Below are positions 22,892 through 50,880 of a stretch of DNA of 64,000 nt, in pieces; position 1 is the first letter of the stretch, and the number at the start of each line of letters is the position of its first letter. Source of the DNA: Sinonovacula constricta (Eukaryota > Mollusca > Bivalvia > Cardiida > Solecurtidae). The notes under the pieces are model-generated. The model saw only the letters and a program-made list of their open reading frames with translations, did not search any database and was not told where the DNA came from. The stretch is from NCBI GenBank assembly GCA_007844125.1, contig CM017558.1, positions 57,913,147 through 57,977,146 of the forward strand. The letters are read 5' to 3'. Position numbers and translations under genes: made by a program.

Positions 22892-22937
22892 ATGTGTCAT
22901 ACCGGCGATAAAAAAATCATCAAGGAAAGCAACTCTG
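22892..22937 (+). CDS. SPATA18-like: MIEAP-like gene, candidate first coding exon
   Basis: ATG with A at -3 and an in-frame TAA two codons upstream, encoding MCHTGDKKIIKESNS. The GTAATA donor leaves phase 1, which is exactly what the next exon needs (G+GT). The intron would be only 114 bp. A different donor further on (GTATTA) would give the wrong phase. The overlapping hydrophobic frame in another phase is probably an AT-rich artefact. Confidence 0.45.
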
Positions 22938-28900: not shown

Positions 28901-31900
28901 TCCACATAGTATTTAGAAGAGGGAGAAGTACTTTTTCTCTTAAAATAATTACACAATTGTTGATTGTAAATAAAACTTATTATTTTAATCGAGACACAAA
29001 TGACCAGAGAAGTGTAAATGGTTGTAGCATCCGGTTCATGTAAAATGGAATTGAATAAACAAACTCCAATGTCCATCAACGGACATACACGTAGCAGTCC
29101 TTAGAAGATGAATTAAATGACAACATAGATTACATGCACCGGAAGCTTCTTTTTTACAACCACCACACTGTAAAATTAAAATTGTTGTAATCATAAAAAA
29201 ATATATATCAAAGTGCTATATGCATTGCAACATATACCAACATTTGAAAAGACACAAGACAAAAGGCATCCACATGCAAGCCGAATATAAAAGTAGGAAC
29301 AAATTAGTGATGAGTCATTTATCAAAAAGAGCAAACGCAACAGTTACCGCCTTTGAACAGTCAGTTAGCAAAATGGACCGACTGTGGTGCTTAAACCAGT
29401 TTTAAAGAGCTCTAACCTGGCACTACCTGAAGGGTTTCTCAAATCAAGCAATGAAAAGAAAACCGATCTATTTGAATAAAAGAAATGTCCAACGCTGACG
29501 TTTTATTTGAAAACTTATGAAGAAAGTTTTGACGTCACTGAAAACTAATGTAGAAAAAATACACGTAACAGACTTTACAGGATGAATTAAATGACAACAA
29601 AGATTGCATGCACGAGAAGACTTTTACGACCACCACACTGCAGAAGTAACATTATTGTAATCATGAATAAGACTATATGACAAAGTCCTACGAGCATTGC
29701 ATTGCAACATATGCCAAAAATTGAAAGGACTCAGAACAAAGGGCATTCACATGCAAGCCAAATGTAAAAGAAAGAACAAGTCAGTGATGAGTTATTTAAC
29801 AACAAAAGCAAACCCAACATTTACCGCCTTGGAACGCTCAGTCGGGAAAAGGGACTGACTGGATGCTTAAACCGGTTTTACAGAGTTCTAACCTCACACT
29901 TTTTTAAGTATTTCTCAAATGCAATAAAAATAAAACCAAACAATATGAAGAAAGATGTCCAAGCGCTGACGTTTTCTTTGATAATTTATTGCGAAAGTAG
30001 TGACGTCATTGAAAAGTAATGTCCACATAGCATTCAGACTAGATGAAAGTATTATTTCTATTAGAAGAACTACACAAAGTTAACGATTATAAATGAAATT
30101 ATTTTTTAATAAGGAAAGAGTGACCATAGAAGTGTAAATTGTTGTGGCATTATGTTTATGTGAAAATGGAATTGAGGAAACAGTTCAATGTCCGTCAAAG
30201 GGAGTACGCGTAACAGTCCTTTTAGAATGAATTAATTGACAATATAGATTACATGCACAAGGCGATTGTTTACTACCGCAACACTGCAGAAGTAATTCTT
30301 GCAATCATGAATAAGAATAATGTCCATCGAAGGAAAAACACAGTTCTTGTGTCGTTGTTTTTAATTTTCGATAACCCACTGCCTATGTCGTTTTAAATCG
30401 TTGGATCAACCCAGTTTAATATTTATTTATTTACTGAACACACATATCAGGTCCTTTTCATTCTTCAAAAGTAGTTTAAGAGATATGGCCAAACGAAATT
30501 TGTATTTTAATTTTCGATAAACCACTGCTTAGGTCGTTTGGAATCTTTTTATCATCCTCATGTAATATTTTCATTATTCAATGAACCCACATGTCAGGTC
30601 GTATTCATATTTCAAAAGTAGATTAAGAGATATGGCAAATCGAAATATGTTATACATTATTGATAGACGGATAATTATTTCCTATATTTGATTAGGTTAA
30701 GCGCTATCATTGCAAGTCGTATTAAGGACGGAAACACAACTATCGTAGACTTGAGTGATGAAAACAGACCGACAAAGCTTGCGGAGTATTTCTCTGAGCT
30801 GTATGATAACGAATGGACCGACTGCTTTGATGAACTGGAAAAGCAGGCAATAGAAGAATCTGAAAGCATACGTATTCTTCTTAAGATTTTGACGGTATGT
30901 TTAAATGTTACCTCACCAGATGACTAAATATTTTTGAATAATGGCAAACATTTATTTTTTACACTACCAGAAGAGTCGATCAATAGATAAGCAAGATTAT
31001 TTATCGACCCTTTATACTTTTTGCTCAAACATTTTAGAAGTTGGATTTTTGTTTTTAAAAATAATCAAAGTAACATAATGTATTAGAAACTAGTAAAAAC
31101 AGGAGTTTAAATATATGTGTTATGTAGCATTGCATTGCAAAGTCGTTTGTTCTTCTTGCAAATGGTTTAAATTCATTTTTTTTCTACGGGCCTAGTCTTC
31201 AAATACTTTGTCAATGGGATTTTATTCTTACGATTTTACTCTAACAAAGGATTCTAACTGGTCATTAATGAGGCAATTATATTTTTCCAGGATATCTTCA
31301 ACGCATGTCTTCAGTGGTCGACGAAAGACTACTTTTTATTAGTTCAGAGGGCAATCGATAGGACATATATTGTGAGTTCTACTATTGTGCTTATTGTTTG
31401 AGACATGCAATTTTAAGCAATACTATATGTATTGACCATTAAAGCATATGAACAGCTATGTTTAATGATTTAATGGAATTTATTATTAATATTCGGTTAA
31501 TACTAGTTGATAACATTTTAGCTTGAAACAGACCCTTTCATTTCAGCGTCATTCTACGCCCCTCCCCCCCCCCCCCCCCCCCAACACGTGTATATATTAC
31601 CAGTTAAATCCAGTAATAATAAGAATAGAATATTATGAGAAGATTCTTTAAAGAATTACCACAAATATATAATTTGAACTACCACTAGTCTTAAGACGTT
31701 TCATTTTATTTTTTCTTTCAAGTTTTAAATATTTTGGTAGGCTTAAAAGTGTTAAAAATACAGATCTAAGTCATATTTTCTTTCTGTTTCATCTTACATG
31801 TAAACTTTATTTGTTATGCTTACAGTCCGATAAAATTGCAGTAGAAAGCAATAAGAGTATAGTTTTATAGTAATAAATTTTGTTGAGTAGGAAAACATTT

Positions 31901-34900
31901 ATTCTGTGGATTTTCTAGTTGTAACATGTGAGAATTTTTCGTAAATTTTTCAAACAGGGCCAAGCTGAGAACGTCACAATCGAGAGACCAAACATTAACG
32001 GATCAAACACACACCCAAAAGGCAACGAAGAGACACCACAAAAAAATGATACTACAGAGGCTACCATAGAGTCTAGGGACAATGCCCAAGATGAAGTACC
32101 ATCTGTCTCGGAGGGTGGACCTTATAATAAACAACAAAATTCAAAGGCAGACTCAGATGAAAAGACACCAAAAACAATTGATCATACACATTCTACCATA
32201 GAGTCAAGGGAAAATGCCTTAGTTAAAATACCATCTATCTCGGAAGATGGATCTTCTGATGACCGACGAGAACCAAAGACAGACGCAGAAAGCAATGAAG
32301 GGACACCACAAAAAACCGATCATACAAAGGCTGCCAAAGAGTCAGGAGAAAATGGTAATGGTGATGCAGAACCTACGAAGGAGGATGAGGATGTATTAAA
32401 AACTACTAATCCAGCAGTTAATGCAGAAGAGTCAAGAGAAAAGGACCAAAGTGACGAGCCGTTTCACGATAACATGAAAAACGGATCATCGTCTGAAGAC
32501 CAGGATGGATCCAGGAAAGCGGCCGAGCAAGGTCTCAGGGTATGTTTTTAGCATATAAATTATGTTTGATGGCTTTCATATCGCAGATCAGTATTCTTTG
32601 CTAACTGTAAAAAAATTCTACTTTCACTTTGCACGTCGTCATTCGTTGAAAATCGTTGATCCTTATTCGCATAACTTATGCAAAAATGCCCGTATGTTAA
32701 TATAAACAACTGCAATTGTAGTCTGGTTCCCAGCTTCTACCTGTGACAGAGCTTTTCGAGCCAAACAATGTCGCGCCAATTAAAATTGGTACCAATACTC
32801 GTAACATACACACACACCGTTTTGTTTATGTTCTACGGTAGGGACAACAGGTGTCATTTAACTAGACCAGCCCAAAAGATATCCTGCTGTACCTAGTGGA
32901 CTACTTACTCAAAGAAAAATGTGCAGCACATGTCAATCAGAGGAATGGTTTATAAACATAAACATATAAATTGCATTTAGATTTAGAGATCCAGTAACAT
33001 TTATGTATAAATTTTAAAACTATTGATTTTGCTTTTATTACTTTGTTTATCATAATATTCGCATAATAGATGCAGTATAATATACCGTTGACTAACCAAT
33101 CATCTGGTAACAAATATGAAAATCAAGTACGGGGGCGGATCCAGGATTATTCAGAGGAGTCCTAGAGGTGTTATCCTTGTTAGATGTGTCTGGAAGGCCT
33201 GCTCCCGTACAACATTTTTAAGTGTAGCAGCTAAATAGAACCCTTGCATTTTAGAGGCTGCTAAAATGTTTCCGTAGTCAATACTGTTTATATTCTCCTC
33301 GTCAAAGATCATATATAATCATATTATTTGATGGGATAAGGGTAGACGTCAAATTGAGAGCTATAGGTAGAGGGTTTGTTTCCACAATAAATGTATTGGC
33401 ATCTAGAAGGCAAATAGTGCCACTTTCTGCAATTCATATGATTAACACATCAATGCTCTTTTCACAAATAGTTAATTGTCAGTTTTATTTTATGCATAAA
33501 TTCTCGTCTTATCTGTATATGTTATTTCTTTACCTATCCATCCGAAATTGCATAAGCTAAAACCTGTCTATAAACACTGGTTTTGCTGTAGTTTACATGC
33601 ACTTCTAACTATTTCAGTCTAGTATGCCGATTGCCGTTGTAGAATTTAAACATAAGTCAGGTTCATCAATACGCAGAAAAAAGTCTGGCTGCTTTCCTAA
33701 AGAGACATATAACCACATTAGACTGAAAATGTACCATTAGTAGTAACAAAATTCATGCATACAAAACGTATTTTATGGCTGCCCTTGTGTAAGGTTTTGC
33801 TTGAATATTATCTATAAATTTATCGATTATATCCCTAAACCTAAAATAACAAGCCTGCTTAGGCATAGTGCACACTGTCATTACAAGTAATGCATGATGA
33901 TCAGTACATTATTTTGTTCTTGATAATGCTAGGCAATAATTACTAGGGCAATGATGAAAACTTTATCCTTAATAGATTCTTTCATCAACTTAAAAAAATC
34001 AATAAATTAATAAAAATTGTATTGTACTGAAAATATTGCGGCTCCACACAAACGCTCAATTGATTGTTTAACATTTAATGAGAAACAAAAAAGTGCACTT
34101 TTTCAGTTTGCCTATATGAACAACACGTATTGATATCTATCCACTTCTCTGGAGAAATTGTTCATATTTTATGCATAAACCCATACTTAAGTCGTTATAA
34201 AGATTTTAAACACAGACTTTATTGTTAGACTGTACTAATCGCAAAAATACTCAAACTTTCCAACTCTTAAAAAACTCGATAGTGGTCCCTGCTAAAATAT
34301 ATATCGACGTCAGAGCGGATTACCCGGATGAGTATTTAAAAGTAAGTGGTCACGTGGTTTTCGAAGTTTATAAATAGTTATCTCTGCATCGTGGCTCGGA
34401 TATGAAACACGTGTTTGCATTGCCGAGTGCGGATTAATCCATGACTGTTCACACAGACCGTTGGCAACAATGAGCAGCATTTTGCAACACCTTTTCAGGT
34501 GCCAATGACTTATTTGGTTATTTGAGAAAAAATGACCAGACTGTCGGATGCCACATTTAAGGCATTCTTTTTCTAATGATCATTTATAAAAGAAACATTC
34601 TATTAGCATGGAATTATTATGAGGTAGTGTGTTCTTTTGGTAGAGACATTATTTCTTTATATATATCTCTCAAGAAAAATAGAACTTTAAATTAGAAAAC
34701 ATTTGATGAACAGTCTACAAACCCATCATGACAGATTTGATTGGAATAAGAAAGACCTCAACAAACCTGTAGGGAATATAATAAGGTGCAGGATTGATTT
34801 AGACCAATATGAAAATTTATTGGTAAGTCCAAAGATAGTAATGAGCATTACATAGCTACACAGTTCTTCAGTGTAATGGTAATGTTCCTTCTCATTGCTG

Positions 34901-37900: not shown

Positions 37901-40900
37901 CTTGCCGAAAAAGGTTGATCGGACGGACGGACTAACGGACGGACAGTTCAATTACTAGATGCCGGGGGCATAAAACCTAGAACTTTAACCAGATTTAAAG
38001 ATGCAATCCATCAATGGGTTCCGGAGCTCTGATTTCCGGTGTTTAAATCCAGGCACAAAATATCAAAGTCACTAAAAGTGGTAGAGGTATGGTTACCTGA
38101 CTAACCCTCAATCATATATGAGTCCTTCCATGACTAGTTGGCCTGGAGTTACTATATTATACTGGGTGTGCTATCAAGATATGGCGTTCATTTCATGCAT
38201 TTCTCAATGAAACTATATGTCTGAAGTCTGGGATAACTGATCTTCAAATTTTGATGGCACTATTGAGACATGTCCCGTGCTGAAAACTGGATACGAGCCG
38301 TGTTAAGGAAAATGTCTGAATATAACCAACCTACTTAAATTTGAAATAGGTGTTGTATCGGTCGAATATTAACCCATCTAAATGCCATTGTGTGTCATTT
38401 CTTTTCAGAGCTCTACATTAAGGGACCCTTTAGTCGATGATGGCATTATTTTTACGATTCCTGTACTTTTAAACGGTCGGCACTCCAAAATTAACACATT
38501 TTGTTGAGTAGCAATGTGTTTGTTTCGAAGTACTTTCTATTTTGAAGGCAGTACTTTGTTATCAGATTTTATTATCATCTGTGCCATCTTGCGAAAACTT
38601 GTACAGAGAATAACAACACTCAACTGAGACAGTGACACCCACAAACAATAAAACTGTACTACAAGAAGAACTTACGGTGCAAGCATAAATTATATAATGT
38701 TTTGTTTCATCGCACCGACACAAGTATGCTCATATTGGCGACGTCCAGACAATTATTGATGACAGAAGACCCCCAGACTCAAGCCTGTGACAAGTCTGTG
38801 TAAAACCAGCGTTACACCCTCGTTAACTGAAAAACACTTTTCACATGACAGTTCTCGTCCCGACTGGGTCTCGAACCAACGCGGTGACGAGATTAGGAGT
38901 TACAAGTCGACAATTCTAAACGCTCGGCCACTGGCGCCTACTTATATTATCTACTAGTAGTTGATTGTGATACGTTTGAACAACAGATTCTAACTAAATC
39001 GATAAAATATGCTGATGCATTGAAACTTGACATATTTGGGTAAGTTTTCGTAAAAGTGCACAATGGTTAGTTTATTTTTTTTTTTTATAACAGTTAATCA
39101 TAAAACTACTTTCGTCATCTGTTAGAAGAAAGTCAATCGTATAAAGAGTTATGAAATAAACGAACGTATTTGTATCCCTATTATAAATGTTTACTCATGT
39201 AAACATGATATTATGTAAAAGTATTTAAGGTTTGTGCCCTTTATTGCATTGCAATACACGATGCTGTGATCAGGTGCTATGCAATTTGACACTCAGGCTT
39301 ACGACCGTCAACAGGGTGACGATACAACATCGTATAGGGATATTAGGGAGAAGACATCTTCTACTAAATGCAGTCAAGACTTATCTCCTGCAAAACGATG
39401 ACAAAGCAAACAGTCATGAAGTGTATATTCTTCACATCGTTTTGACATTTTTGTGTAAAGAAATCACAGCAAAGTGCAATACATCGTTGTACAATCTTTG
39501 CGATAAGTGTTTTGTCAATTAAACAAACTTACATTCAGTGTATACTTTTTCTGCTGTTTAACCTCAGGTGTTATTTTATGGCAATGATCCATGTACCTTT
39601 TGCGAACAAGGGTGCACGGTACTTTCGTATTGGATCATGTAGGGATTGGTTGTAATTTATTTAAACAGATCCAGGATGAGACACATGCTGATGACAGGTC
39701 AAGCATCACTGAATTGGCAGAGTCCGTTCAAGAGTCAGAGAATAAATGTCAAGTTAAAGCACTATCTGCTACGGGGGATGGGCTTTCTAGAAAAGACCAC
39801 GAATCCAATGCAGAGGCAAGCGTTTATGTCGAAGGCTCAGAATCCACAGAGGCAGGGCAAAATGGCCAAAGCGAGGAACAATCTAGCACGGAGGTTGGAG
39901 TAAGACATCAAAAATATAAATATGCTAAATGATTTTCATATCGTAGATCAGTAATATTGCCGGCTGTAGACTTTCCTGTCTTAATAAAATTATCGCCACT
40001 TAATGGCTTCTTTAAATCATAAAATCGCCCATTGCTTGTATTTGTAAAACGAGATTTAAAACACCGATTTTCTCACACGATTGTCGCCATGACTTTAAAC
40101 ATATTTCAAATATGTCGAAAGATTGTTTTTACAGACAGGAAATTATAATACCCATTGTGAAAGAGCAAATAATATCCAGTCATTAATGTAGCTCTGGATA
40201 ACAGGTTTAATCAACATAGGTATAACGAACATAATAATTGCTAATATGACCTTTCGACCAGGTAAATATTGTATACCGTGAACAAAGGGAAAATCCTGCT
40301 TATGAACAAAAGTGATTTTCTGCAATAGTTTGACGACTGTACTACAAGAAGAACTTACGGTGCAAGCATAAATTATATTATGTTTTGTTTCATCGCACCG
40401 ACACAAGTATGCTCATATTGGCGACGTCCAGACAATTATTGATGACAGAAGACCCCCAGACTCAAGCCTGTGACAAGTCTGTGTAAAACCAGCGTTACAC
40501 CCTCGTTAACTGAAAAACACTCTTCATATGACAGTTCTTGTCCGGACTGGGTCTCGAACCAACGCGGTGACGGGATGAGGAGTTACAAGTCGGCAACTCT
40601 AAACGCTCGGCCACTGGCGCCTACTTATATGATCTACTAGTAGTTGATTGTAATACGTTTGAACAACAGATTCTAACTAAATCGATAAAATATGCTGATG
40701 CATTGAAACTCGACATATATGGTTAATTTTTCGTAAAAGTGCACAATGGTTAGTTTATTAATTTTTTCATAACAGTTAATCATAAAACTACTTTCGTCAT
40801 CTGTTAGAAGAAAGTCAATCGTATAAAGAGTTATGAAATTAACGAACGTATTTGTATCCCTATTATAAATGTTTACTCATGTAAACGTGATATTATGTAA

Positions 40901-43900
40901 AAGTATTTTAGGTGTGTGCCCTTTATTGCATTGCAATACACGATGCTGTGATCAGGTGCTATGCAATTTGACACTCAGGCTTACGACCGTCAACAGGGTG
41001 ACGATACAACATCGTATAGTGATATTAGGGAGGAGACATCTTCTACTAAATGCAGTCAAGACTTATCTCCTAAAAACGATGACAAAGCAAACAGTCATGA
41101 AGTGTATATTCTTCACATCGTTTTTACATCTTTGTGTAAAGAAATCACAGCAAAGTGCAATACATCGTTGTACAATCTTTGCGATTAGTGTTTTGTCAAT
41201 TAAACAAACTTACATTCAGTGTATACTTTTTCTGCTGTTTAACCTCAGGTGTTATTTTATGGCAATGATCCATGTACCTTTTGCGAACAAGGGTGCACGG
41301 TACTTTCGTATTGGATCATGTAGGGATTGGTTGTAATTTATTTAAACAGATCCAGGATGAGACACATGCTGATGACAGGTCAAGCATCACTGAATTGGCA
41401 GAGTCCGTTCAAGAGTCAGAGAATAAATGTCAAGTTAAAGCACTATCTGCTACGGGGGATGGGCTTTCTAGAAAAGACCACGAATCCAATGCAGAGGCAA
41501 GCGTTTATGTCGAAGGCTCAGAATCCACAGAGGCAGGGCAAAATGGCCAAAGCGAGGAACAATCTAGCACGGAGGTTGGAGTAAGACATCAAAAATATAA
41601 ATATGCTAAATGATTTTCATATCGTAGATCAGTAATATTGCCGGCTGTAGACTTTCCTGTCTTAATAAAATTATCGCCACTTAATGGCTTCTTTAAATCA
41701 TAAAATCGCCCATTGCTTGTATTTGTAAAACGAGATTTAAAACACCGATTTTCTCACACGATTGTCGCCATGACTTTAAACATATTTCAAATATGTCGAA
41801 AGATTGTTTTTACAGACAGGAAATTATAATACCCATTGTGAAAGAGCAAATAATATCCAGTCATTAATGTAGCTCTGGATAACAGGTTTAATCAACATAG
41901 GTATAACGAACATAATAATTGCTAATATGACCTTTCGACCAGGTAAATATTGTATACCGTGAACAAAGGGAAAATCCTGCTTATGAACAAAAGTGATTTT
42001 CTGCAATAGTTTGACGACTGTACTACAAGAAGAACTTACGGTGCAAGCATAAATTATATTATGTTTTGTTTCATCGCACCGACACAAGTATGCTCATATT
42101 GGCGACGTCCAGACAATTATTGATGACAGAAGACCCCCAGACTCAAGCCTGTGACAAGTCTGTGTAAAACCAGCGTTACACCCTCGTTAACTGAAAAACA
42201 CTCTTCATATGACAGTTCTTGTCCGGACTGGGTCTCGAACCAACGCGGTGACGGGATGAGGAGTTACAAGTCGGCAACTCTAAACGCTCGGCCACTGGCG
42301 CCTACTTATATGATCTACTAGTAGTTGATTGTAATACGTTTGAACAACAGATTCTAACTAAATCGATAAAATATGCTGATGCATTGAAACTCGACATATA
42401 TGGTTAATTTTTCGTAAAAGTGCACAATGGTTAGTTTATTAATTTTTTCATAACAGTTAATCATAAAACTACTTTCGTCATCTGTTAGAAGAAAGTCAAT
42501 CGTATAAAGAGTTATGAAATTAACGAACGTATTTGTATCCCTATTATAAATGTTTACTCATGTAAACGTGATATTATGTAAAAGTATTTTAGGTGTGTGC
42601 CCTTTATTGCATTGCAATACACGATGCTGTGATCAGGTGCTATGCAATTTGACACTCAGGCTTACGACCGTCAACAGGGTGACGATACAACATCGTATAG
42701 TGATATTAGGGAGGAGACATCTTCTACTAAATGCAGTCAAGACTTATCTCCTAAAAACGATGACAAAGCAAACAGTCATGAAGTGTATATTCTTCACATC
42801 GTTTTTACATCTTTGTGTAAAGAAATCACAGCAAAGTGCAATACATCGTTGTACAATCTTTGCGATTAGTGTTTTGTCAATTAAACAAACTTACATTCAG
42901 TGTATACTTTTTCTGCTGTTTAACCTCAGGTGTTATTTTATGGCAATGATCCATGTACCTTTTGCGAACAAGGGTGCACGGTACTTTCGTATTGGATCAT
43001 GTAGGGACTGGTTGTAATTTATTTAAACAGATCCAGGATGAGACACATACTGATAAGAAGCCAAGAATCACTGAAGAGGCGGAGTCCGTTCAAGAGTCAG
43101 AGAATAAATGTGAAGTTGAAGCACCATCTGCTACGGGAGATGGGCCTTCTAAGAACGAACACGAATCCAATGCAGAGGCAAGCGTATATGTCGATGGTCA
43201 ACAATCCACAGAGGCGGGGCAAAATGGCCAAGGCGAGGAACAATCTAGCACGGAGGTTGGAGTTAGACTTCAAAAATATAAATATGCTAAATGATTTTCA
43301 TGTCGAAGATCAGTAATATTGCCGGCTGTAGACTTTCCTGTCTTAATACAATTATCGCCACTTAATCGCTTCTTAAAATCATAAAATCGACTATTGCTTG
43401 TAGTTGTAAAATGAGATTTAAAACACTGATTTTCTCACACGATTGTCGCCATGACTTTAAACATATTTCAAATATGTCGAAAGATTGTTTTTACAGACAG
43501 GAAATTATAATACCCATTGTGAAAGAGCAAATAATATCCAGTCATTAATGTAGCTCTGGATAACAGGTTTAATCAACATAGGTATAACGAACATAATAAT
43601 TGCTAATATGACCTTTCGACCAGGTAAATATTGTATACCGTGAACAAAAGGAAAATCCTGCTTATGAACAAAAGTGATTTTCTACAATAGTTTGACGACT
43701 GTACTACAAGAAGAACTTACGGTGCAAGCATAAATTATATTATGTTTTGTTTCATCGCACCGACACAAGTATGCTCATATTGGTGACGTCCAGACAATTA
43801 TTGATGACAGAAGACCCCCAGACTCAAGCCTGTGACAAGTCTGTGTAAAACCAGCGTTACACCCTCGTTAACTGAAAAACACTCTTCATATGACAGTCCT

Positions 43901-46900
43901 TGTCCGGACTGGGTCTCGAACCAACGCGGTGACGGGATGAGGAGTTACAAGTCGGCAACTCTAAACGCTCGGCCACTGGCGCCTACTTATATTATCTACT
44001 AGTAGTTGATTGTAATACGTTTGAACAACAGATTCTAACTAAATCGATAAAATATGCTGATGCATTGAAACTTGACATATTTGGGTAATTCTTCGTAAAA
44101 GTGCACAATGGTTAGTTTATTATTTTTTTCATAACAGTTAATCATAAAACTACTTTCGTCATCTGTTAGAAGAAAGTCAATCGTATAAAGAGTTATGAAA
44201 TTAACGAACGTATTTGTATTCCTATTATAAATGTTTACTCATGTAAACGTGATATAATGTAAAAGTATTTTAGGTTTGTGCCCTTTATTGCATTGCAATA
44301 CACGATGCTGTGATCGGGTGCTATGCAATTTGACACTCAGGCTTACGACCGTCAACAGGGTGACGATACAACATCGTATAGTGATATTAGGGAGGAGACA
44401 TCTTCTACTAAATGCAGTCAAGACTTATCTCCTAAAAACGATGACAAAGCAAACAGTCATGAAGTGTATATTCTTCACATCGTTTTTACATCTTTGTGTA
44501 AAGAAATCACAGCAAAGTGCAATACATCGTTTTACAATCTTTGCGATTAGTGTTTTGTCAAATAAACAAACTCACATTCAGTGTATACTTTTTCTGCTGT
44601 TTAACCTCAGGTGTCATTTTATGGCAATGATCCATGTACCTTTTGCGAACAAGGGTGCACGGTACTTTCGTATTGGATCATGTAGGGACTGGTTGTAATT
44701 TATTTAAACAGATCCAGGATGAGACACATACTGATAAGAAGCCAAGAATCACTGAAGAGGCGGAGTCCGTTCAAGAGTCAGAGAATAAATGTGAAGTTGA
44801 AGCACCATCTGCTAAGGGAGATGGGCCTTCTAAGAAAGAACCCGAATCCAATGCAGAGGCAAGCGAATATGTCGATGGTCAACAATCCACAGAGGCGGGG
44901 CAAAATGGCCAAGGCGAGGAACAATCTAGCACGGAGGTTGGAGTTAGACTTCAAAAATATAAATATGCTAAATGATTTTCATATCGTAGATCAGTAATAT
45001 TGCCGGCTGTAGTTTTTCCTGTCTTAAAAACAATTATCGCCACTTAATCGCTTCTTAAAATCATAAAATCGACTATTGCTTGTAGTTGTAAAATGAGATT
45101 TATTAACACTGATTTTCTCACACGATTGTCGCCATGACTTTAAACATATTTCAAATATGTCGAAAGATTGTTTTTACAGACAGGAAATTATAATACCCAT
45201 TGTGAAAGAGCAAATAATATCCAGTCATTAATGTAGCTCTGGATAACAGGTTTAATCAACATAGGTATAACGAACATAATAATTGCTAATATGACCTTTC
45301 GACCAGGTAAATATTGTATACCGTGAACAAAAGGAAAATCCTGCTTATGAACAAAAGTGATTTTCTGCAATAGTTTGACGACTGTACTACAAGAAGAACT
45401 TACGGTGCAAGCATAAATTATATTATGTTTTGTTTCATCGCACCGACACAAGTATGCTCATATTGGCGACGTCCAGACAATTATTGATGACAGAAGACCC
45501 CCAGACTCAAGCCTGTGACAAGTCTGTGCAAAACCAGCGTTACACCCTCGTTAACTGAAAAACACTCTTAATATGAAAGTTCTTGTCCGGACTGGGTCTC
45601 GAACCAACGCGGTGACGGGATGAGGAGTTACAAGTCGGCAACTCTAAACGCTCGGCCACTGTCGCCTACTTATATTATCTACTAGTAGTTGATTGTAATA
45701 CGTTTGAACAAAAGATTCTAACTAAATCGATAAAATATGCTGATGCATTGAAACTCGACATATTTGGTTAATTTTTCGTAAAAGTGCACAATGGTTAGTT
45801 TATTAATTTTTTCATAACAGTTAATCATAAAACTACTTTCGTCATCTGTTAGAAGAAAGTCAATCGTATAAAGAGTTATGAAATAAACGAACGTATTTGT
45901 ATCCCTATTATAAATGTTTACTCATGTAAACATGATATAATGTAAAAGTATTTTAGGTTTGTGCCCTTTATTGCATTGCAATACACGATGCTGTGATCAG
46001 GTGCTATGCAATTTGACACTCAGGTTTACGACCGTCAACAGGGTGACGATACAACATCGTATAGTGATATTAGGGAGGAGACATCTTCTACTAAATGCAG
46101 TCAAGACTTATCTCCTAAAAACGATGGCAAAGCAAACAGTCATGCAGTGTATATTCTTCACATCGTTTTGACATTTTTGTGTAAAGAAATCACAGCAAAG
46201 TGGAATACATCGTTGTACAATCTTTGCGATTAGTGTTTTGTCAATTAAACAAACTTACATTCAGTGTATACTTTTTCTGCTGTTTTACCTCAGGTGTTAT
46301 TTTATGGCAATGATCCATGTACCTTTTGCGAACAAGGGTGCACGGTACTTTCGTATTGGATCATGTAGGGACTGGTTGTAATTTATTTAAACAGATCCAG
46401 GATGAGACACATGCTGATGAGAGGCCAAGCATCACTGAAGAGTTGAAGTCCGTTCAAGAGTCAGAGAATAAATGTCAAGTTGAAGCACTATCTGCTACGG
46501 GGAATGGGTCTTCTAAGAAAGAACACGAATCCAATGCAGAGGCAAGCGTATATGTCGATGGTCAACAATCCACAGAGGCGGGGCAAAATGGCCAAGACGA
46601 AGAACAATCTAGCACGAAGGTTGGAGTTAGACTTCAAAAATATAAATATGATAAATGATTTTCATATCGTAGATCAGCAATATTGCCGGCTGTAGTTTTT
46701 CCTGTCTTAATACAAATATCGCCACTTAATCGCTTCTTAAAATCATAAAATCGACTATTGCTTGTAGTTGTAAAATGAGATTTAAAACACTGATTTTCTC
46801 ACACGATTGTCGCCATGACTTTAAACATATTTCAAATATGTCGAAAGATTGTTTTTACAGACAGGAAATTATAATACCCATTGTGAAAGAGCAAATAATA

Positions 46901-49900
46901 TCCAGTCATTAATGTAGCTCTGGATAACAGGTTTAATCAACATAGGTATAACGAACATAATAATTGCTAATATGACCTTTCGACCAGGTAAATATTGTAT
47001 ACCGTGAACAAAGGGAAAATCCTGCTTATGAACAAAAGTGATTTTCTGCAATAGTTTGACGACTGTACTACAAGAAGAACTTACGGTGCAAGCATAAATT
47101 ATATTATGTTTTGTTTCATCGCACCGACACAAGTATGCTTATATTGGCGACGTCCAGACAATTATTGATGACAGAAGACCCCCAGACTCAAGCCTGTGAC
47201 AAGTCTGTGTAAAACCAGCGTTACACCCTCGTTAACTGAAAAACACTCTTCATATGACAGTTCTTGTCCGGACTGGGTCTCGAACCAACGCGGTGACGGG
47301 ATGAGGAGTTACAAGTCGGCAACTCTAAACGCTCGGCCACTGGCGCCTACTTATATTATCTACTAGTAGTTGATTGTAATACGTTTGAACAACAGATTCT
47401 AACTAAATCGATAAAATATGCTGATGCATTGAAACTTGACATATTTGGGTAATTTTTCGTAAAAGTGCACAATGGTTAGTTTATTATTTTTTTCATAACA
47501 GTTAATCATAAAACTACTTTCGTCATCTGTTAGAAGAAAGTCAATCGTATAAAGAGTTATGAAATTAACGAACGTATTTGTATTCCTATTATAAATGTTT
47601 ACTCATGTAAACGTGATATAATGTAAAAGTATTTTAGGTTTGTGCCCTTTATTGCATTGCAATACACGATGCTGTGATCGGGTGCTATGCAATTTGACAC
47701 TCAGGCTTACGACCGTCAACAGGGTGACGATACAACATCGTATAGTGATATTAGGGAGGAGACATCTTCTACTAAATGCAGTCAAGACTTATCTCCTAAA
47801 AACGATGACAAAGCAAACAGTCATGAAGTGTATATTCTTCACATCGTTTTTACATCTTTGTGTAAAGAAATCACAGCAAAGTGCAATACATCGTTTTACA
47901 ATCTTTGCGATTAGTGTTTTGTCAATTAAACAAACTTACATTCAGTGTATACTTTTTCTGCTGTTTAACCTCAGGTGTCATTTTATGGCAATGATCCATG
48001 TACCTTTTGCGAACAAGGGTGCACGGTACTTTCGTATTGGATCATGTAGGGACTGGTTGTAATTTATTTAAACAGATCCAGGATGAGACACATACTGATA
48101 AGAAGCCAAGAATCACTGAAGAGGCGGAGTCCGTTCAAGAGTCAGAGAATAAATGTGAAGTTGAAGCACCATCTGCTAAGGGAGATGGGCCTTCTAAGAA
48201 AGAACCCGAATCCAATGCAGAGGCAAGCGAATATGTCGATGGTCAACAATCCACAGAGGCGGGGCAAAATGGCCAAGGCGAGGAACAATCTAGCACGGAG
48301 GTTGGAGTTAGACTTCAAAAATATAAATATGCTAAATGGTTTTCATATCGTAGATCAGTAATATTGCCGGCTGTAGTTTTTCCTGTCTTAAAAACAATTA
48401 TCGCCACTTAATCGCTTCTTAAAATCATAAAATCGACTATTGCTTGTAGTTGTAAAATGAGATTTATTAACACTGATTTTCTCACACGATTGTCGCCATG
48501 ACTTTAAACATATTTCAAATATGTCGAAAGATTGTTTTTACAGACAGGAAATTATAATACCCATTGTAAAAGAGCAAATAATATCCAGTCATTAATGTAG
48601 CTCTGGATAACAGGTTTAATCAACATAGGTATAACGAACATAATAATTGCTAATATGACCTTTCGACCAGGTAAATATTGTATACCGTGAACAAAAGGAA
48701 AATCCTGCTTATGAACAAAAGTGATTTTCTGCAATAGTTTGACGACTGTACTACAAGAAGAACTTACGGTGCAAGCATAAATTATATTATGTTTTGTTTC
48801 ATCGCACCGACACAAGTATGCTCATATTGGTGACGTCCAGACAATTATTGATGACAGAAGACCCCCAGACTCAAGCCTGTGACAAGTCTGTGTAAAACCA
48901 GCGTTACACCCTCGTTAACTGAAAAACACTCTTCATATGAAAGTTCTTGTCCGGACTGGGTCTCGAACCAACGCGGTGACGGGATGAGGAGTTACAAGTC
49001 GGCAACTCTAAACGCTCGGCCACTGGCGCCTACTTATATGATCTACTAGTAGTTGATTGTAATACGTTTGAACAACAGATTCTAACTAAATCGATAAAAT
49101 ATGCTGATGCATTGAAACTCGACATATTAAGGTAATTTTTCGTACAAAGTGCACAGTAGTTAATTTATTGATTTTTTCATGACAATTAATCATGTGTTAT
49201 TTTAAGGCAATGATCTGTGTACCTTTTGCGAACAGGGGTGCACGGAAGCACCCTTAACCAATGAATGTGAGACGAGAGATTAAACTGAGGACCAGGGAAA
49301 GTCTAGACAAAAGACCAAAGAAAATGTGAGGCATTAAAGCAAAATCAAATGTAAACGATATTTAAGTGTAATAGTTTTTTATTCTAAATTAAATAATTGG
49401 AATACACATACTTACAGGCTTTGATATCAAAGAAGTTTAGCGCAATTACATTTCAGCAATTTGTTATTGCAACATGAATAAGAATATATGTGAGCATTGC
49501 AACATATACCAAACCATGAAAAAGCTCAAGAGAAAGTAATATACATATAAGCCAAATGTAAAAGTAAGAACAAATCTGTGATGAGTCATTTAGCAAAAAT
49601 AGCAAACCCAACAGTTACCGACTTAAATGGTCAGTCGGCAAAAAGGACCGACTGGGGTGCTTAAACCGGGTTTAAAGAGCTCTATAATCGCGCTGATGTT
49701 TTTCAAATTCAAGCAAGGAAAAGAATACCAATCTTTTAGAATTAAAAAGGTCACAGAGCTGACATCCTTTTTGATATATTATGGCGAAAGTAGTACATCG
49801 TTGAAAAATAATGTTGACATAGTATTAACACGAAAGAGATGTATTATTTCTATTAGAAGAACAACATAAAACTGTTGACTGTAAGTGAAATTAACATTTT

Positions 49901-50880
49901 GACTCAAGAAAAACAATGACTAGAGAAGTGTAACTGATTGTAGTGTTTCCAGAATATTTTGAAGATTGAAACTAAACTGTAGTTATACAGCTACGCCAAA
50001 GGATGAATTACATTTTAACAGGCAAATTTAAATCTTTTATACTTTTTGTTACAATTTGTTTCATATGCAAAGTTTATTTGTTGACCTAGATAGAACGACT
50101 TAAATTAGTTTTAACCTTTGTCATGTTCGTGTATATTTCAAGGACAAAGAAAAATTACCGCCAAGAGAAAAAGAAGAAGTTGAGTTGCCAAACGACCTAC
50201 TGCAACCCATAAAGGCAATAAAGAAGAGAAGAGCGTTGAAAGTTTTGCCAACCATACACGAGGTATTGAACATTTTTCTCATTTTTTAACAATAACATGA
50301 AAACACTTATTCTCTAAACTTGGTTGTTCGACGATCGATCAGACAAAACAGAATAGTTCTTTAATGAAACGAGGAGCGCAATTTGGGGAGAAAAGTTTGA
50401 GTGACTGAAATAAAGTAAAATTATACGAAATCGATTTAATATTACAGGCTATGGTAAGGCATGCCACGATTATAATCGATATGAATACTTCTCATATAGT
50501 AATCCATTGTAGTTGGTGGGTTTTGTATTGAGTTGAAAACTACATAATATGGGTAGACCCATAGACTAAAAGACAAGTATTAATCTCCTTTCCAGTTTGT
50601 CCGAAGGAAGATACCAACACTGGTCCAGGCTCGATTTGCGTCTACCTACTTCCAGACGTATATTCAGAAGTGCATAGAGTTTAGCTGGTTGGCCGTAGTT
50701 CAGGATCCTCCATTGGTCCTGCTTACTGATGGTGGTACCAAGTTTGATCGCAAACTTTTTAAGGAGTACATGAGGCGGGGTCAGTTTGTAGAGTTCGTTG
50801 TCTGGCCTGCCCTCCTCGTCGAGGAGGGAGGAGCTATTTTGTCTAAGGGCGTGGCACAGGGCATTAATAAGCCCCCGTAA
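22892..50880 (+). CDS. SPATA18-like: MIEAP-like (mitochondria-eating protein) gene, multi-exon with amplified internal exons
   Basis: Whole-gene span; exons are listed separately. The chain 22892-22937, 23052-23142, 27276-27338, 30696-30894, 31291-31371, 31958-32539, array exons A and B, 50143-50262 and 50596-50880 has GT-AG sites, and phases join without a break. The predicted order is a short N-terminus, a coiled coil, the first part of the MIEAP C-terminal domain, an acidic disordered tract, the array-encoded tract, a basic linker, and the conserved end of the MIEAP domain. MIEAP (SPATA18) in vertebrates is induced by p53 and takes part in mitochondrial quality control; bivalves carry expanded families whose roles are not established. 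The long acidic tract is not something I know from vertebrate MIEAP. If all exons are used the protein is about 1,140 residues. Start and array-exon usage need transcript support. Confidence 0.8.
23052..23142 (+). CDS. SPATA18-like: MIEAP-like gene, coiled-coil exon 1
   Basis: 91 bp, open in only one phase: KQPSAQEMKDNLIGLENQD then LKKQFTDLEKR, a heptad-like charged helix. Acceptor 'aaaacag', donor GTACGG. The end phase (2) matches the start phase of 27276-27338. Two further exon-like pieces follow in the intron (23323-23385 and near 23750), both with AG before and GTATGTGC after. Confidence 0.65.
23323..23385 (+). other. Exon-like segment in MIEAP-like intron, phase-incompatible
   Basis: 63 bp between 'tttcttag' and 'gtatgtgc'. 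Open as DCKALARARHSKDRKDFSQK E in phase 0, but the phase needed to follow the preceding exon meets a TAG after four codons. A shortened partial repeat of its tail with the same donor lies near 23750-23776. Probably a decayed or alternative coiled-coil exon. Confidence 0.3.
24660..24850 (-). mobile_element. Diverged tRNA-derived SINE (same family as array SINE)
   Basis: Minus strand: A-box-like 'ggccgagcagttagag', then 'ggttcgtcacggtcg', and a 3' part reading 'ggacgtcgccgatatggac', which corresponds to 'ggacgtcgccaatatgagc' in the SINE copies at 38.7-49.0 kb. The plus-strand open frame here (24611-24847) is antisense to it and not a gene. Confidence 0.65.
24860..26950. other. MIEAP-like intron, no convincing feature
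   Basis: AT-rich. A stretch at 26731-26930 could be read as an exon with a hydrophobic segment (LTILIAGQLLFLLLIFTYM) between 'tgttttaag' and 'gtaatac', but the composition is what AT-rich sequence often gives and it has no duplicate to test against. The minus-strand frame at 25185-25460 has no recognisable domain. Confidence 0.4.
27276..27338 (+). CDS. SPATA18-like: MIEAP-like gene, coiled-coil exon 2
   Basis: 63 bp, phase 2 at both ends, acceptor 'ttttgtcag', donor GTATGTG. Encodes NADLEGRLEAELQEKNELSL, a strong coiled-coil sequence. A related segment follows 325 bp downstream (27664-27708) and a broken duplicate is at 55132-55195. Its last two bases plus the first G of 30696-30894 restore an arginine codon. 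Confidence 0.75.
27664..27708 (+). CDS. Possible duplicated coiled-coil exon with a GC donor
   Basis: 45 bp, phase 2 at both ends, encoding RLEAELQEKNYLSM after 'caaaacag'. It matches most of the preceding exon, and the flanking intron is duplicated too. Its donor reads GAG/GCATGTG instead of GAG/GTATGTG. GC donors are a real minority class, so it may be used as a 15-residue extension, or the change may have silenced it. Confidence 0.4.
28165..28320 (+). repeat. Repeat unit also present twice at 30350-30650
   Basis: Contains 'ttcgata.cc.act.c.taggtcg', 'tttaatatt', 'atgaac.c.catgtcaggtc' and 'aagggatatg' in order. The same order appears in two adjacent ~150-bp copies at 30350-30500 and 30500-30650. 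The copies flank the R-repeat array, which suggests that the R array and this unit were duplicated together or that the array expanded inside it. Confidence 0.7.
28325..30315 (+). repeat. Tandem array of three dispersed-repeat R copies
   Basis: Unit 1 is 28325-29215 (interrupted by a SINE), unit 2 is 29216-29690 (internally deleted) and unit 3 is 29691-30315. Each runs from the 'gcaacatatacc' or 'gtcagtcgg' part to 'accaccacactg' and 'gtaatcat.aa.aa'. These are the longest copies of R and define its full extent. No coding frame. Confidence 0.85.
28572..28884 (+). mobile_element. tRNA-derived SINE, full length, 313 bp
   Basis: Flanked by a perfect 13-bp target duplication, acattgttaaata (28559-28571 and 28885-28897). 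The head has the pol III A box TGGTAGCGCAATCGG and B box GGTTCGATCCC in a tRNA-like fold. The 3' end is 'gataaacccaataaacaaa'. It is inserted in an R repeat. A near-identical copy is at 54752-55060 and a degenerate one at about 38000-38330. Confidence 0.95.
30350..30650 (+). repeat. Tandem duplication, two ~150-bp copies
   Basis: Both copies contain 'ttaattttcgata..ccactgc', 'aggtcgttt', 'catgtcaggtc' or 'catatcaggtc', and 'aagagatatgg'. They end about 45 bp before the acceptor of the next MIEAP-like exon. Confidence 0.8.
30696..30894 (+). CDS. SPATA18-like: MIEAP-like gene, start of MIEAP C-terminal domain
   Basis: 199 bp, acceptor 'tatttgattag', donor GTATGT, phase 2 in and 0 out. Encodes LSAIIASRIKDGNTTIVDLS then RPTKLAEYFSELYDNEWTD and a further helix ending RILLKILT. 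The 'RPTKLAE.FSELYDNEWTD' block is the signature I associate with the opening of the MIEAP C-terminal domain (PF16026-type) in molluscan proteins. Matches are from memory; an HMM search would settle it. Confidence 0.88.
31291..31371 (+). CDS. SPATA18-like: MIEAP-like gene, short domain exon
   Basis: 81 bp, phase 0 at both ends, acceptor 'atttttccag', excellent donor GTGAGT. Encodes DIFNACLQWSTKDYFLLVQR followed by AIDRTYI, continuing the helical MIEAP domain after the SELYDNEWTD exon. Confidence 0.75.
31564..31582 (+). repeat. Homopolymer C tract, 19 bp
   Basis: A run of 19 C in a MIEAP-like intron, striking in AT-rich DNA. Length may be affected by sequencing error. Confidence 0.9.
31958..32539 (+). 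CDS. SPATA18-like: MIEAP-like gene, large acidic disordered exon with internal repeats
   Basis: 582 bp, phase 0 at both ends, acceptor 'tttcaaacag', donor GTATGT. The 194 residues are rich in Glu, Asp, Ser, Asn, Lys and Thr with almost no aromatics, so likely disordered. At least three ~43-residue repeats are visible, each with an '[E]TPQKTDHTKA.[I]ESRENA' part and a 'VPS[VI]SE.G' part: around residues 17-55, 60-100 and 104-140. A fourth part (ESGENGNGDAEP, EESREKDQSDEP) is more diverged. The motif E-S-[RE]-[DE]-N....[PL]-S-.-[ST]-.-[DG]-G recurs in exon B of the 1.68-kb array, so the array probably grew from this kind of module. Confidence 0.8.
32540..34300. other. MIEAP-like intron, no recognised feature
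   Basis: AT-rich, with one GC-richer stretch 'gggggcggatccaggatt' at about 33130, a motif often seen at mollusc transposon fragments, and 'ggaaggcctgctcccgt' downstream. No coding or RNA gene seen. Confidence 0.4.
34305..34575 (+). promoter_or_regulatory. Promoter/first-exon-like block, copy 2 (intact ATG)
   Basis: Partner of 5871-6140. A CRE-like 'cgacgtcagagcgg' is followed by TATTTAAAAGTAAG and a short open stretch ATGAGCAGCATTTTGCAACA continuing to CTTTTCAG/GTGCCA. With its ATG intact it could start a short exon MSSILQHLF. It lies in the intron between the acidic exon and the array, so it could act as an internal promoter for a short isoform beginning before the array. This is inference; it may instead be a dispersed repeat. 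Confidence 0.35.
34800..34940 (-). CDS. Unrecognised minus-strand exon-like segment
   Basis: After 'ttattttacaag' the minus strand reads EGNVEKHVSVVSSNEKEHYH then YTEELCSY before a GTAATG donor. The composition is protein-like. With the next entry it might be part of a nested gene or an old retrocopy on the opposite strand. No domain recognised. Confidence 0.25.
35075..35320 (-). CDS. Unrecognised minus-strand exon-like segment
   Basis: Minus strand: YETLEKLLVLVTMNKCDEPK, then QFTSNTLWLFEIHQPIKDLV and LALNRLSATQSRPKE, ending at a good GTAAGA donor, with a possible acceptor 'cttgatag' upstream. It reads as a folded-protein exon of about 80 residues rather than a chance frame. I do not recognise the family. 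Together with 34800-34940 it suggests a second gene or gene fragment antisense inside the MIEAP-like intron. Confidence 0.35.
35340..36770. other. AT-rich intron with an (AGT)n microsatellite
   Basis: An imperfect trinucleotide AGT/AGA/AGC tract lies at about 35968-36019 and explains the poly-leucine frame on the minus strand. Nothing else recognised. Confidence 0.6.
36778..37004 (+). mobile_element. tRNA-derived SINE, same 3' family as the array SINE
   Basis: Begins 'gcgccagtggcccagcagtg' (compare 'gcgccagtggccgagcg' of the array SINE) and ends '..tgaacgtcgccaatatgacc' followed by 'gaaacgaaaaacaaaca'. Middle sequence differs, including 'aaccggcagtacttcagtgg', so it is a related subfamily. 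Open frames here on both strands are not genes. Confidence 0.7.
37047..37975 (+). mobile_element. Pearl-like composite element with ~170-bp tandem core
   Basis: Short inverted ends (tatgccccc near 37048 and gggggcata near 37970) enclose about five diverged copies of a ~170-bp unit ('ttatg..acttgtcagg.tcatgac', 'tgtgcaaactttcatgccac', 'ctctttgtagaaaca', 'caacttgccgaaacaggtt'), starting near 37080, 37245, 37417, 37590 and 37795. It ends in a (GGAC)n-like tail 'gatcggacggacggact'. A tandem core plus a tetranucleotide tract near the 3' end is the layout of bivalve pearl/CvE-type elements, thought to be Helitron-derived. Open frames here are not genes. Confidence 0.7.
38000..38330 (+). mobile_element. 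Degenerate copy of the 313-bp SINE family
   Basis: Matches the SINE at 28572-28884 through 'atatcaaagtc..taaa..tggtag', 'ccatgactagttggcctgg', 'actgggtgtg.tatca' and 'ggataactga', with many substitutions and a damaged tRNA head. An older insertion. Confidence 0.65.
38699..38941 (-). mobile_element. Array SINE, unit 1 (tRNA-derived, ~243 bp)
   Basis: Minus strand begins 'ggcgccagtggccgagcg' (A box) with B box GGTTCGAGACC about 60 bp on, and ends 'cggtgcgatgaaacaaaac'. It is bounded by TTATATAAT/TTATATTAT, a 9-bp target duplication. The same insertion with the same duplication is in every unit, so it predates the amplification. The other copies are 40382-40624, 42063-42305, 43744-43986, 45427-45669, 47108-47350 and 48791-49033. 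Confidence 0.88.
39297..39420 (+). pseudogene. Array exon A, unit 1 (frameshifted)
   Basis: Matches exon A of the other units but is 124 bp instead of 123. 'tctcctgcaaaacgatga' replaces 'tctcctaaaaacgatgac', a net +1 that brings an in-frame stop. Because array exons are phase 0 at both ends, skipping it would not harm the rest of the frame. Confidence 0.45.
39669..39893 (+). CDS. SPATA18-like: Array exon B, unit 1 (acidic repeat)
   Basis: 225 bp, phase 0 at both ends, between 'aatttatttaaacag' and GAG/GTTGGA (an alternative donor six bases on reads GTAAGA in units 1 and 2 and also keeps phase). Encodes IQDETHADDRSSITELAESV, then QESENKCQVKALSATGDGLS and an Asn/Glu/Ser/Gly-rich tail ending EEQSSTE. 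The 'ESENK....[AL]S..GDG.S' core resembles the repeats of exon 31958-32539, the best evidence that the array is coding. Likely disordered. Confidence 0.7.
40382..40624 (-). mobile_element. Array SINE, unit 2
   Basis: Same insertion as at 38699, carried by the array unit. One target duplication reads TTATATGAT after a point change. Confidence 0.88.
40979..41101 (+). CDS. SPATA18-like: Array exon A, unit 2 (candidate)
   Basis: 123 bp, phase 0 at both ends, between 'ttgacactcag' and GTGTAT. Encodes AYDRQQGDDTTSYSDIREET then SSTKCSQDLSPKNDDKANSH E: polar and acidic like exon B. The splice sites are only fair, and the acceptor lacks a strong pyrimidine tract, so it may not be used. Reading frame is kept in units 2-6. 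Confidence 0.45.
41350..41574 (+). CDS. SPATA18-like: Array exon B, unit 2
   Basis: Protein identical to unit 1. Differs from unit 3 at 26 of 225 bases; 17 codons change the amino acid and 5 are silent. The 248 bases of intron directly upstream differ from unit 3 at one position only. Confidence 0.7.
42063..42305 (-). mobile_element. Array SINE, unit 3
   Basis: Same insertion carried by the third unit; virtually identical to unit 2. Confidence 0.88.
42660..42782 (+). CDS. SPATA18-like: Array exon A, unit 3 (candidate)
   Basis: Protein identical to unit 2 exon A; same sites and phase. Confidence 0.45.
43031..43255 (+). CDS. SPATA18-like: Array exon B, unit 3
   Basis: Second sequence type: IQDETHTDKKPRITEEAESV, with EVEAPSATGDGPSKNEHESN and a DGQQSTE tail. 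Same length and splice sites as unit 2. The donor context has GTTAGA at the alternative site. Confidence 0.7.
43744..43986 (-). mobile_element. Array SINE, unit 4
   Basis: Same insertion carried by the fourth unit; 'ttggtgacgtcc' replaces 'ttggcgacgtcc', a change shared with the seventh copy. Confidence 0.88.
44341..44463 (+). CDS. SPATA18-like: Array exon A, unit 4 (candidate)
   Basis: Protein identical to units 2 and 3; same sites and phase. Confidence 0.45.
44712..44936 (+). CDS. SPATA18-like: Array exon B, unit 4
   Basis: Like unit 3 with ATGDG to AKGDG, NEH to KEP and SVY to SEY. Identical in protein to unit 6. Confidence 0.7.
45427..45669 (-). mobile_element. Array SINE, unit 5
   Basis: Same insertion carried by the fifth unit; its first base block reads 'cactgtcgcc' instead of 'cactggcgcc'. 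Confidence 0.88.
46024..46146 (+). CDS. SPATA18-like: Array exon A, unit 5 (candidate)
   Basis: Starts VYDRQQ instead of AYDRQQ and ends KNDGKANSHA. The last base before the donor changes to give GCA/GTGTAT. Frame intact. Confidence 0.45.
46395..46619 (+). CDS. SPATA18-like: Array exon B, unit 5
   Basis: Third sequence type, mixed between types: HADERPSITEELKSVQ as in units 1/2, then KKEHESNAEASVYVDGQQ as in unit 3, ending DEEQSSTK. The mosaic suggests exchange between types. Confidence 0.7.
47108..47350 (-). mobile_element. Array SINE, unit 6
   Basis: Same insertion carried by the sixth unit. Confidence 0.88.
47705..47827 (+). CDS. SPATA18-like: Array exon A, unit 6 (candidate)
   Basis: Protein identical to unit 4 exon A; same sites and phase. 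Confidence 0.45.
48076..48300 (+). CDS. SPATA18-like: Array exon B, unit 6
   Basis: Protein identical to unit 4, two units away. Downstream the non-coding TGA is changed to TGG, which lengthens the open frame, but this lies beyond the donor and has no expected effect if spliced. Confidence 0.7.
48791..49033 (-). mobile_element. Array SINE, partial unit 7
   Basis: Same insertion carried by the terminal incomplete unit, which lacks exons A and B. Confidence 0.88.
49241..50140 (+). repeat. Intron with dispersed repeat R copy (about 49473-50010)
   Basis: The R landmarks 'gagcattgcaacatatacc', 'ggtcagtcggcaaaaaggac', 'ggtgcttaaaccgggttta' and 'tctattagaagaac' appear in order. The open frame at 49627-49869 is part of this repeat and not a gene. 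The remaining intron is plain AT-rich sequence. Confidence 0.8.
50143..50262 (+). CDS. SPATA18-like: MIEAP-like gene, charged linker exon
   Basis: 120 bp, phase 0 at both ends, acceptor 'tatttcaag', donor GTATTG. Encodes DKEKLPPREKEEVELPNDLL followed by QPIKAIKKRRALKVLPTIHE: a charged stretch turning strongly basic (KKRRALK). It joins the acidic tract to the final domain exon. KKRR could be a nuclear localisation or phospholipid-binding patch; not tested. Confidence 0.75.
50596..50880 (+). CDS. SPATA18-like: MIEAP-like gene, last exon, conserved C-terminus
   Basis: Acceptor 'tctcctttccag', stop TAA at 50878-50880. Encodes 94 residues: FVRRKIPTLVQARFASTYFQ, YIQKCIEFSWLAVVQDPPLV, KFDRKLFKEYMRRGQ, VEFVVWPALLVEEGG, AILSKGVAQG. 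The pattern 'Y[IV]..C.E..WL..[VI]QDPP', then 'FD...[FY]K.Y...G', then 'VVWPAL..[EH].G.[IL]L.KGVA' is the C-terminal signature of MIEAP, including vertebrate SPATA18 ('LEPP', 'HVWPAL', 'MKGEAV' positions). Length and ending are normal for the family. This is the firmest gene call in the window. Confidence 0.92.
   Translation, partial: FVRRKIPTLVQARFASTYFQTYIQKCIEFSWLAVVQDPPLVLLTDGGTKFDRKLFKEYMRRGQFVEFVVWPALLVEEGGAILSKGVAQGINKPP

Follow-up and report, generated by a model that had tools for sequence, protein, structure and literature searches.

How can a tandem array of long repeat units lie inside a protein domain, and do its units reach the protein? The question is raised by a 64,000-nucleotide stretch of the genome of the bivalve Sinonovacula constricta (C4:57913147-57977146; genome of 1.22 Gb in 177 contigs), hereafter the window, which carries a MIEAP-domain gene interrupted by six full units of about 1.68 kb. 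We examined a single assembly and derived the gene model from splice signals and reading frames. The reading we favour, with a probability of about 70%, is that this is a bivalve MIEAP gene whose domain holds a loop encoded by the exons D1 and B, and that B was multiplied to six copies, which would be spliced in.

A putative exon array within the MIEAP domain

Self-comparison of the window revealed a strong 1681-1683-bp periodicity from 38.65 to 49.2 kb. The six full units start at positions 38655, 40338, 42019, 43700, 45383 and 47064 and measure 1683, 1681, 1681, 1683, 1681 and 1683 bp, in that order; a partial seventh starts at 48747. Pairwise identity of the full units is 95.5-99.5%, with 8 to 76 differing positions per pair. 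Repeats this long exclude chance as the origin of the array. The closest sister of a unit switches along the length of the unit, and a 4,018-bp stretch recurs at two-unit spacing with 3,960 of its 4,018 positions identical. This pattern fits the duplication of one- and two-unit blocks with exchange afterwards. Every full unit contains exon B, 231 nt long, stop-free and in phase 0 at both ends in 6/6 units. The features of the gene and the array, in window positions, are as follows.

22892..23142, plus strand: exon N1, putative first coding exon, ending in phase 2 (open reading frame and GT donor; the start codon is putative)
27276..27338, plus strand: coiled-coil exon of 63 nt or 21 residues, phase 2 at both ends (splice sites, translation)
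30696..30894, plus strand: exon M1, N-terminal part of the MIEAP domain (PF16026 positions 1-50; tblastn with bivalve MIEAP proteins)
31291..31371, plus strand: exon M2, MIEAP helix preceding the loop, phase 0 (splice sites; joined domain match)
31958..32539, plus strand: exon D1, acidic loop exon of 194 residues, phase 0 at both ends, with internal 132-bp repeats
38655..48746, plus strand: tandem array of six full 1681/1683-bp units (self-comparison, unit alignment)
39669..39899, plus strand: exon B copy 1, 77 residues, phase 0 at both ends
41350..41580, plus strand: exon B copy 2, identical to copy 1
42054..42311, minus strand: dispersed element resembling a short interspersed nuclear element (SINE), present in every full unit, unit 3 copy given (tRNA-derived look, by eye)
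43031..43261, plus strand: exon B copy 3, weak donor GTTAGA
44712..44942, plus strand: exon B copy 4, weak donor GTTAGA
46395..46625, plus strand: exon B copy 5, weak donor GTTAGA
48076..48306, plus strand: exon B copy 6, identical to copy 4, weak donor GTTAGA
48747..49245 (end approximate), plus strand: partial seventh unit with an internal deletion, lacking exon B
50143..50262, plus strand: exon L, where the MIEAP domain resumes after the loop, phase 0 at both ends (splice sites; joined domain match)
50596..50880, plus strand: exon C, C-terminal part of the MIEAP domain and TAA stop (PF16026 positions 119-193, E value 1.9e-12)

The two ends of the domain were recognized separately. The M1 region at 30.7 kb matches PF16026 positions 1-50 with 19.3 bits, alone under the cut-off of 27, and the C region at 50.6 kb matches positions 119-193 with 48.1 bits. 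When the exons were joined without the insert, the match covered positions 1-193 of 195 and rose to 66.6 bits (E 3.9e-18); with D1 kept in, it was 61.6 bits. The motifs SELYDNEW, WPAL and SKGVAQ, which account for many of the columns that are invariant, or nearly so, in 40 relatives, are present in M1 and C. Between two landmark motifs the insert-free domain measures 182 residues, against a median of 181 in relatives (103 domains in 98 of the best 120 listed, the window's own domain excluded). Five of these 103 domains reach at least 300 residues, the longest 364. All introns between M1 and C are in phase 0, and skipping the whole array also preserves the frame.

A preliminary description of this DNA had described a 1.68-kb tandem array between two parts of a MIEAP-domain gene, an exon B in phase 0 at both ends and an acidic, disordered tract made by it, and had named the profile search on the joined exons as a check. 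All of this was borne out, the disorder as a prediction: the joined exons scored well above the cut-off, the array consists of six full units and a partial seventh, and the insert of 194 + 6 x 77 = 656 residues would contain 157 aspartates and glutamates against 59 lysines and arginines, for a net charge of -98. It falls on the disordered side of a charge-hydropathy line. The description had also allowed for a second frame-neutral exon, A. This candidate failed: units 4 and 6 have lost the acceptor AG, unit 1 carries a frameshift and stops, and the frame of A would call for a phase 1 acceptor although its donor is in phase 0. We also rejected a candidate exon N2 (23323-23385), which by eye does not continue the frame of N1.

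Where in the domain does the loop sit? In the AlphaFold model of P0004, the insertion point falls between helices, in a linker of low confidence (residues 276-291). For P0034, the modelled residues 187-204, after the corresponding helix, are likewise of low confidence; by eye this protein lacks the helix following the loop, so that agreement with P0004 is partial only. The Ruditapes protein P0124 carries an acidic loop of 434 residues at the same place. This loop is internally duplicated, with a self-duplication score of 239, whereas 100 shuffles (matched steps) reached 100 at most. Short tandem repeats were seen by eye in the loop of the Mercenaria protein P0121, and the domain of the Dreissena protein P0113 measures 311 residues. 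These models and alignments suggest that the loop sits in a natural linker of the MIEAP domain, and that relatives with long acidic or repetitive loops share the place.

The SINE-like element occupies unit positions ~36-293. It has matches on several other contigs and relatives within the window at 36780-36996 and 24808-24843. Scans with ARAGORN and Rfam found no RNA genes in the window. Tandem repeats of 172 and 207 bp lie at 37070-37885, in the intron ahead of the array, and occur in four of five neighbouring genes in a different arrangement. A dispersed repeat pair lies at 1940-3411 and ~60.3-61.8 kb, ~58.4 kb apart.

Neighbouring genes and the origin of exon B

The genome contains 82 MIEAP exon matches. 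Exon M1 has 16 close copies including its own, 92-100% identical over nearly the whole query, and they form two clusters on C4, one with six copies (57.8-58.1 Mb) and one with ten (39.8-41.2 Mb). The window gene is thus one of six adjacent copies on one chromosome. We compared 40 kb of DNA for each of its five neighbours in this first cluster (Pm2, Pm1, Pp1, Pp2 and Pp3). Exon N1 has a DNA match in 5/5 of them, at 80-96% identity and partial in Pp3, and D1 homologues of 239 and 242 residues were found in two. Pm2, Pm1 and Pp2 have one intact exon B apiece, Pp1 has a truncated one, and none was found in the 40 kb of Pp3. The number of intact B exons in the six genes is therefore 6 (window), 1, 1, 1, 0 and 0. 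The preliminary description had proposed a variable copy number, and these counts bear it out between paralogs of one genome.

A genome search with exon B, in which 15/15 candidates were scored, returned the window's six copies, the single copies of Pm2, Pm1 and Pp2, the truncated piece, a decayed copy at 58056601 and four distant copies in the second cluster. No second B array was listed in this search. Two more, mirrored second-cluster copies appeared in a genome search with the whole unit; the search with exon B missed these two, and hence gives no full census. The whole-unit search scored 39 of 1205 candidates, the window's own array was not among the matches listed, and we did not use it for counts. 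The six units share states that differ from those of the three neighbours with a full-length B, for example ATCCAG for AGCCAG at the start of the exon. Therefore, the amplification is specific to the window gene.

We also compared exon B with D1. About 370 bp of the intron following D1 match the intron following B with 71-72% identity in four of the five neighbours (E 7e-42 to 8e-48), and D1 is intact in two of those four. In the window, D1 and B share two collinear short matches (E 0.002 each), and by eye the second-cluster B copies extend into a tail that resembles the end of D1. Shuffling of the protein sequences gave uneven results: 0/500 shuffles reached the D1-B score for units 3 and 4, and 39/500 and 54/500 reached it for units 1 and 5. 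For this reason, we base the derivation of B from D1 on the comparison of DNA and introns. By this comparison, exon B arose from D1 through an old duplication, lost part of its length later and was finally multiplied in the window gene.

The neighbours also differ in the 63-nt coiled-coil exon. The window gene has one intact copy; Pm2, Pm1, Pp1, Pp2 and Pp3 have 9, 5, 7, 6 and 4, respectively, in their 40 kb. The copies have AG/GT ends and are stop-free, except that three of them have AA, AT or CG for AG. Some of these exons may belong to broken duplicates, because fragments of M1 are interspersed with them in three of the neighbours (Pm1, Pp1 and Pp3). With this caution, the window gene appears to combine the fewest coil exons with the longest loop of the six. 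In Pm2 (G000:C4:57827403-57836394), five of the nine copies follow one another at a spacing of ~990 bp and form a second exon array. Exon M1 of Pm1 has an in-frame stop within the MIEAP domain (G000:C4:57893745), and this gene may be a pseudogene.

Parts of the second MIEAP cluster form an apparent mirror-image pair, G000:C4:39.82-40.00 Mb and 40.95-41.18 Mb, ~1 Mb apart. At two places of this contig 1.36 Mb apart, 500/500 bases are identical in inverted orientation. A recent palindromic duplication would explain the pair, and so would a duplicated assembly.

Drift, frame and splicing of exon B

Is exon B maintained as coding sequence? Eleven of eleven distinct B copies lack an in-frame stop despite at least 158 changes (P ~0.0006 under random substitution). 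In the two other frames, taken as a control, 6/11 copies (next frame) and 11/11 copies (third frame) have stops. The count omits units 2 and 6 (identical to units 1 and 4), the copy at 39818226 (the same as that at 41176711), the copy at 39972442 (1-nt insertion), the truncated copy of Pp1 and the stop-bearing relic at C4:58056567. Between the clusters, the dN/dS ratio (nonsynonymous to synonymous rate) of B is 0.80. Within the first cluster, seven distinct copies show no indel in 231 exon columns versus 11 events in 504 flanking columns; the comparison uses homologous flanks only, as the module begins just ~53 bp before exon B in the neighbours.

Several results weigh against the reading we favour. 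In the first cluster, pN/pS (nonsynonymous to synonymous differences) is 1.01 for B and 0.90-1.08 for D1, so that the amino-acid sequence of the loop is hardly constrained; the corresponding values are 0.67 for M1, 0.60 for M2, 0.29 for L and 0.31 for C (six paralogs, one with a stop in M1). The absence of stops is weak evidence within this cluster alone, where seven distinct copies are stop-free over at least 61 changes (P 0.056) and a second frame is open in 5/7. The copies omitted from the stop count include a second-cluster frameshift, the 1-nt insertion mentioned above, as well as the relic, and one of the 11 counted copies, from the second cluster, lacks the acceptor AG. The donors of B are also poor. 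By a splice-site score matrix, units 1-2 have donors of 0.53 and units 3-6 have donors of -3.5; in the latter an alternative frame-keeping donor reaches -0.62 (0.25 in unit 5). Donors of the coiled-coil exon, M1, M2 and D1 score 2.6-4.6; that of exon L is also weak (-0.66). Because of the poor donors in units 3-6, partial inclusion of B is quite possible. By these counts, the loop sequence drifts and the domain is held, and the frame of B is kept while its sequence drifts.

A serious contender, almost as likely as a spacer role for the loop, is that the exons are coding and their amplification was neutral. An unconstrained loop would tolerate added modules, and recombination between repeats would have made six of them with no benefit. 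The pN/pS values near 1 for B and D1 speak for this, as do the neighbours, whose loop exons, as far as found, extend from none up to D1 with a single B while four of the five keep an open domain, and the genome search with B, in which no second array was listed. Neutrality fits less well with a frame kept over at least 158 changes and with the long acidic loops that recur in further bivalve species. The net charge of B, -11 to -14 against -9.2 +/- 2.8 in random mutants, is a weak excess that points the same way.

We consider it unlikely that the six exons are cryptic or decaying, such that the mRNA would join D1 to L and the array would be intronic, satellite-like DNA. The weak donors of units 3-6, the frame kept when the array is skipped, and the truncation of B in Pp1 and failure to find it in Pp3 speak for this reading. 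However, the GT donor, the AG acceptor and the frame are kept in 6/6 copies and in 3/3 full-length neighbours, and the frame is open in four of five distinct second-cluster copies (one of the four without the acceptor AG).

Diversifying selection on the array is very improbable. Exon B does vary more between units than the remainder of the unit (37/231 columns versus 74/1455 elsewhere; Fisher P 3e-8), but the excess runs 168 bp into the following intron, which is almost equally variable (22/168), before it drops sharply (3/272). Much of the pattern is one block: 18 of the 37 variable exon sites divide units 1-2 from the others, with pN ~ pS between the two groups. Changes among units 3, 4 and 6 (4 nonsynonymous versus 0) are too few for judgement. 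Selection on the exon is therefore not supported; the variable block fits recombined or converted DNA instead. The least probable of the alternatives is an assembly artefact: the inverted 500-base identity makes duplicated assembly conceivable in this genome, but the closest unit pair still differs at 8 positions, the units form a two-unit block structure, and fixed differences separate them from the single-copy neighbours.

In the reading we favour, the protein would consist of a coiled coil followed by the MIEAP domain, with a long, acidic, disordered loop in the natural linker of the domain, encoded by separate phase-0 exons, D1 and its descendant B. After the split from the neighbours, the B module (the exon and ~1.45 kb of intron) would have multiplied to six, probably through unequal exchange and conversion. 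Each gain or loss of a module would change the protein by 77 residues with the frame unbroken. The predicted protein would have 988 residues with every modelled exon in use and 526 if the array is skipped. Recombination between repeated introns would shift the exon number in steps of 21 residues in the stalk or 77 residues in the loop. If all six copies are spliced in, the loop, up to 656 residues long, may serve as an acidic spacer of adjustable length that holds partners away or modulates self-association, and its length might matter to the animal. Such a role is a fair guess from vertebrate Mieap, which is reported to form condensates (PMC10845071, in part). A part in mitochondrial quality control, as supposed in the preliminary description, would likewise be a guess by analogy with vertebrate Mieap.

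Relatives and known systems

Of 7996 candidates scored in a protein search, 164 matched at E <= 0.001, and all named proteins among the best 120 listed are from bivalves except one from Endozoicomonas. A further protein search, with 214 candidates, gave 8 matches, P0124 among them. With D1 plus three copies of B as the query, no relative was found at E <= 0.001 among 7995 scored. The Endozoicomonas protein, P0003, ranks third among the listed matches. It is encoded by Endozoicomonas sp. Mp262 (5,155,130-bp contig), is 854 residues long and, by eye, contains three copies of a MIEAP-like domain, which suggests a transfer from an animal host. A genome contig scan found no relatives.

The fold of the domain was compared with known structures. 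Searched by sequence, the domain alone had no match among solved structures at E <= 1; the family profile had nine up to E 10 (best E 0.021), the top three in the coil region. In the AlphaFold models of P0004 and P0034, a long helix is followed by a bundle and a beta part, as in GrpE, and GrpE is the top match for these models, below significance. Profile alignment of MIEAP with GrpE by hhalign gave a probability below 1% in 2/2 comparisons, the GrpE profile being narrow (5 sequences). In bivalves, one Mieap orthogroup holds 807 genes, with a mean of 53 per bivalve species versus 0.6 in others, and the HSP70 family is also greatly expanded (PMC8382680, in part). It is a long shot that bivalve MIEAP-like proteins are in general built from two frame-neutral modules, a 21-residue coil of three heptads and a 77-residue acidic loop, whose gain and loss would set stalk and loop length gene by gene and differ between individuals, with a GrpE-like co-chaperone domain expanded alongside HSP70.

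Searches of the open-access literature, subscription papers lying outside it, listed no report of such an array or loop in MIEAP genes, and we found no functional test of the MIEAP family in bivalves. In this genome, neighbouring genes carry no, one or six modules, so that a single family allows a test of how loop length acts. This family has expanded very strongly in bivalves.

Length-setting arrays of whole exons with variable copy number are best known for folded modules, such as the LPA kringles. The KIV-2 array of human LPA likewise consists of tandem exon-plus-intron units within one gene, is frame-neutral and translates copy number into protein length (PMC7613587, in part). The window gene has in common with it the tandem units of exon and intron in one gene and a unit that keeps the frame, its exons being putative. 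The KIV-2 units are ~5,550 bp long with two exons, encode a folded kringle, and are proven to be polymorphic and expressed (PMC7613587, in part), whereas the unit described here measures 1.68 kb, has one putative exon and would encode disordered acidic sequence in a domain loop. Paralogs of the morpheus/NPIP family in human segmental duplications likewise differ in the number of coding tandem repeats, but those repeats are 57-87 bp long and lie within one exon (PMC2812944, in part); the window gene repeats entire exons and introns. Vertebrate Mieap/SPATA18 also has a coiled coil, disordered regions and a C-terminal half of the MIEAP family, with disorder predicted around the coiled coils (92-311) and at the C-terminus (499-538) (PMC10845071, in part). 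Unlike it, the window gene has a large disordered region that splits the MIEAP domain. The bivalve MIEAP-like proteins P0124, P0121 and P0113, compared as proteins, have the same domain and loop as the window gene. Arrays of exon modules are thus already known; what would be new here is the lengthening of a disordered loop inside a domain.

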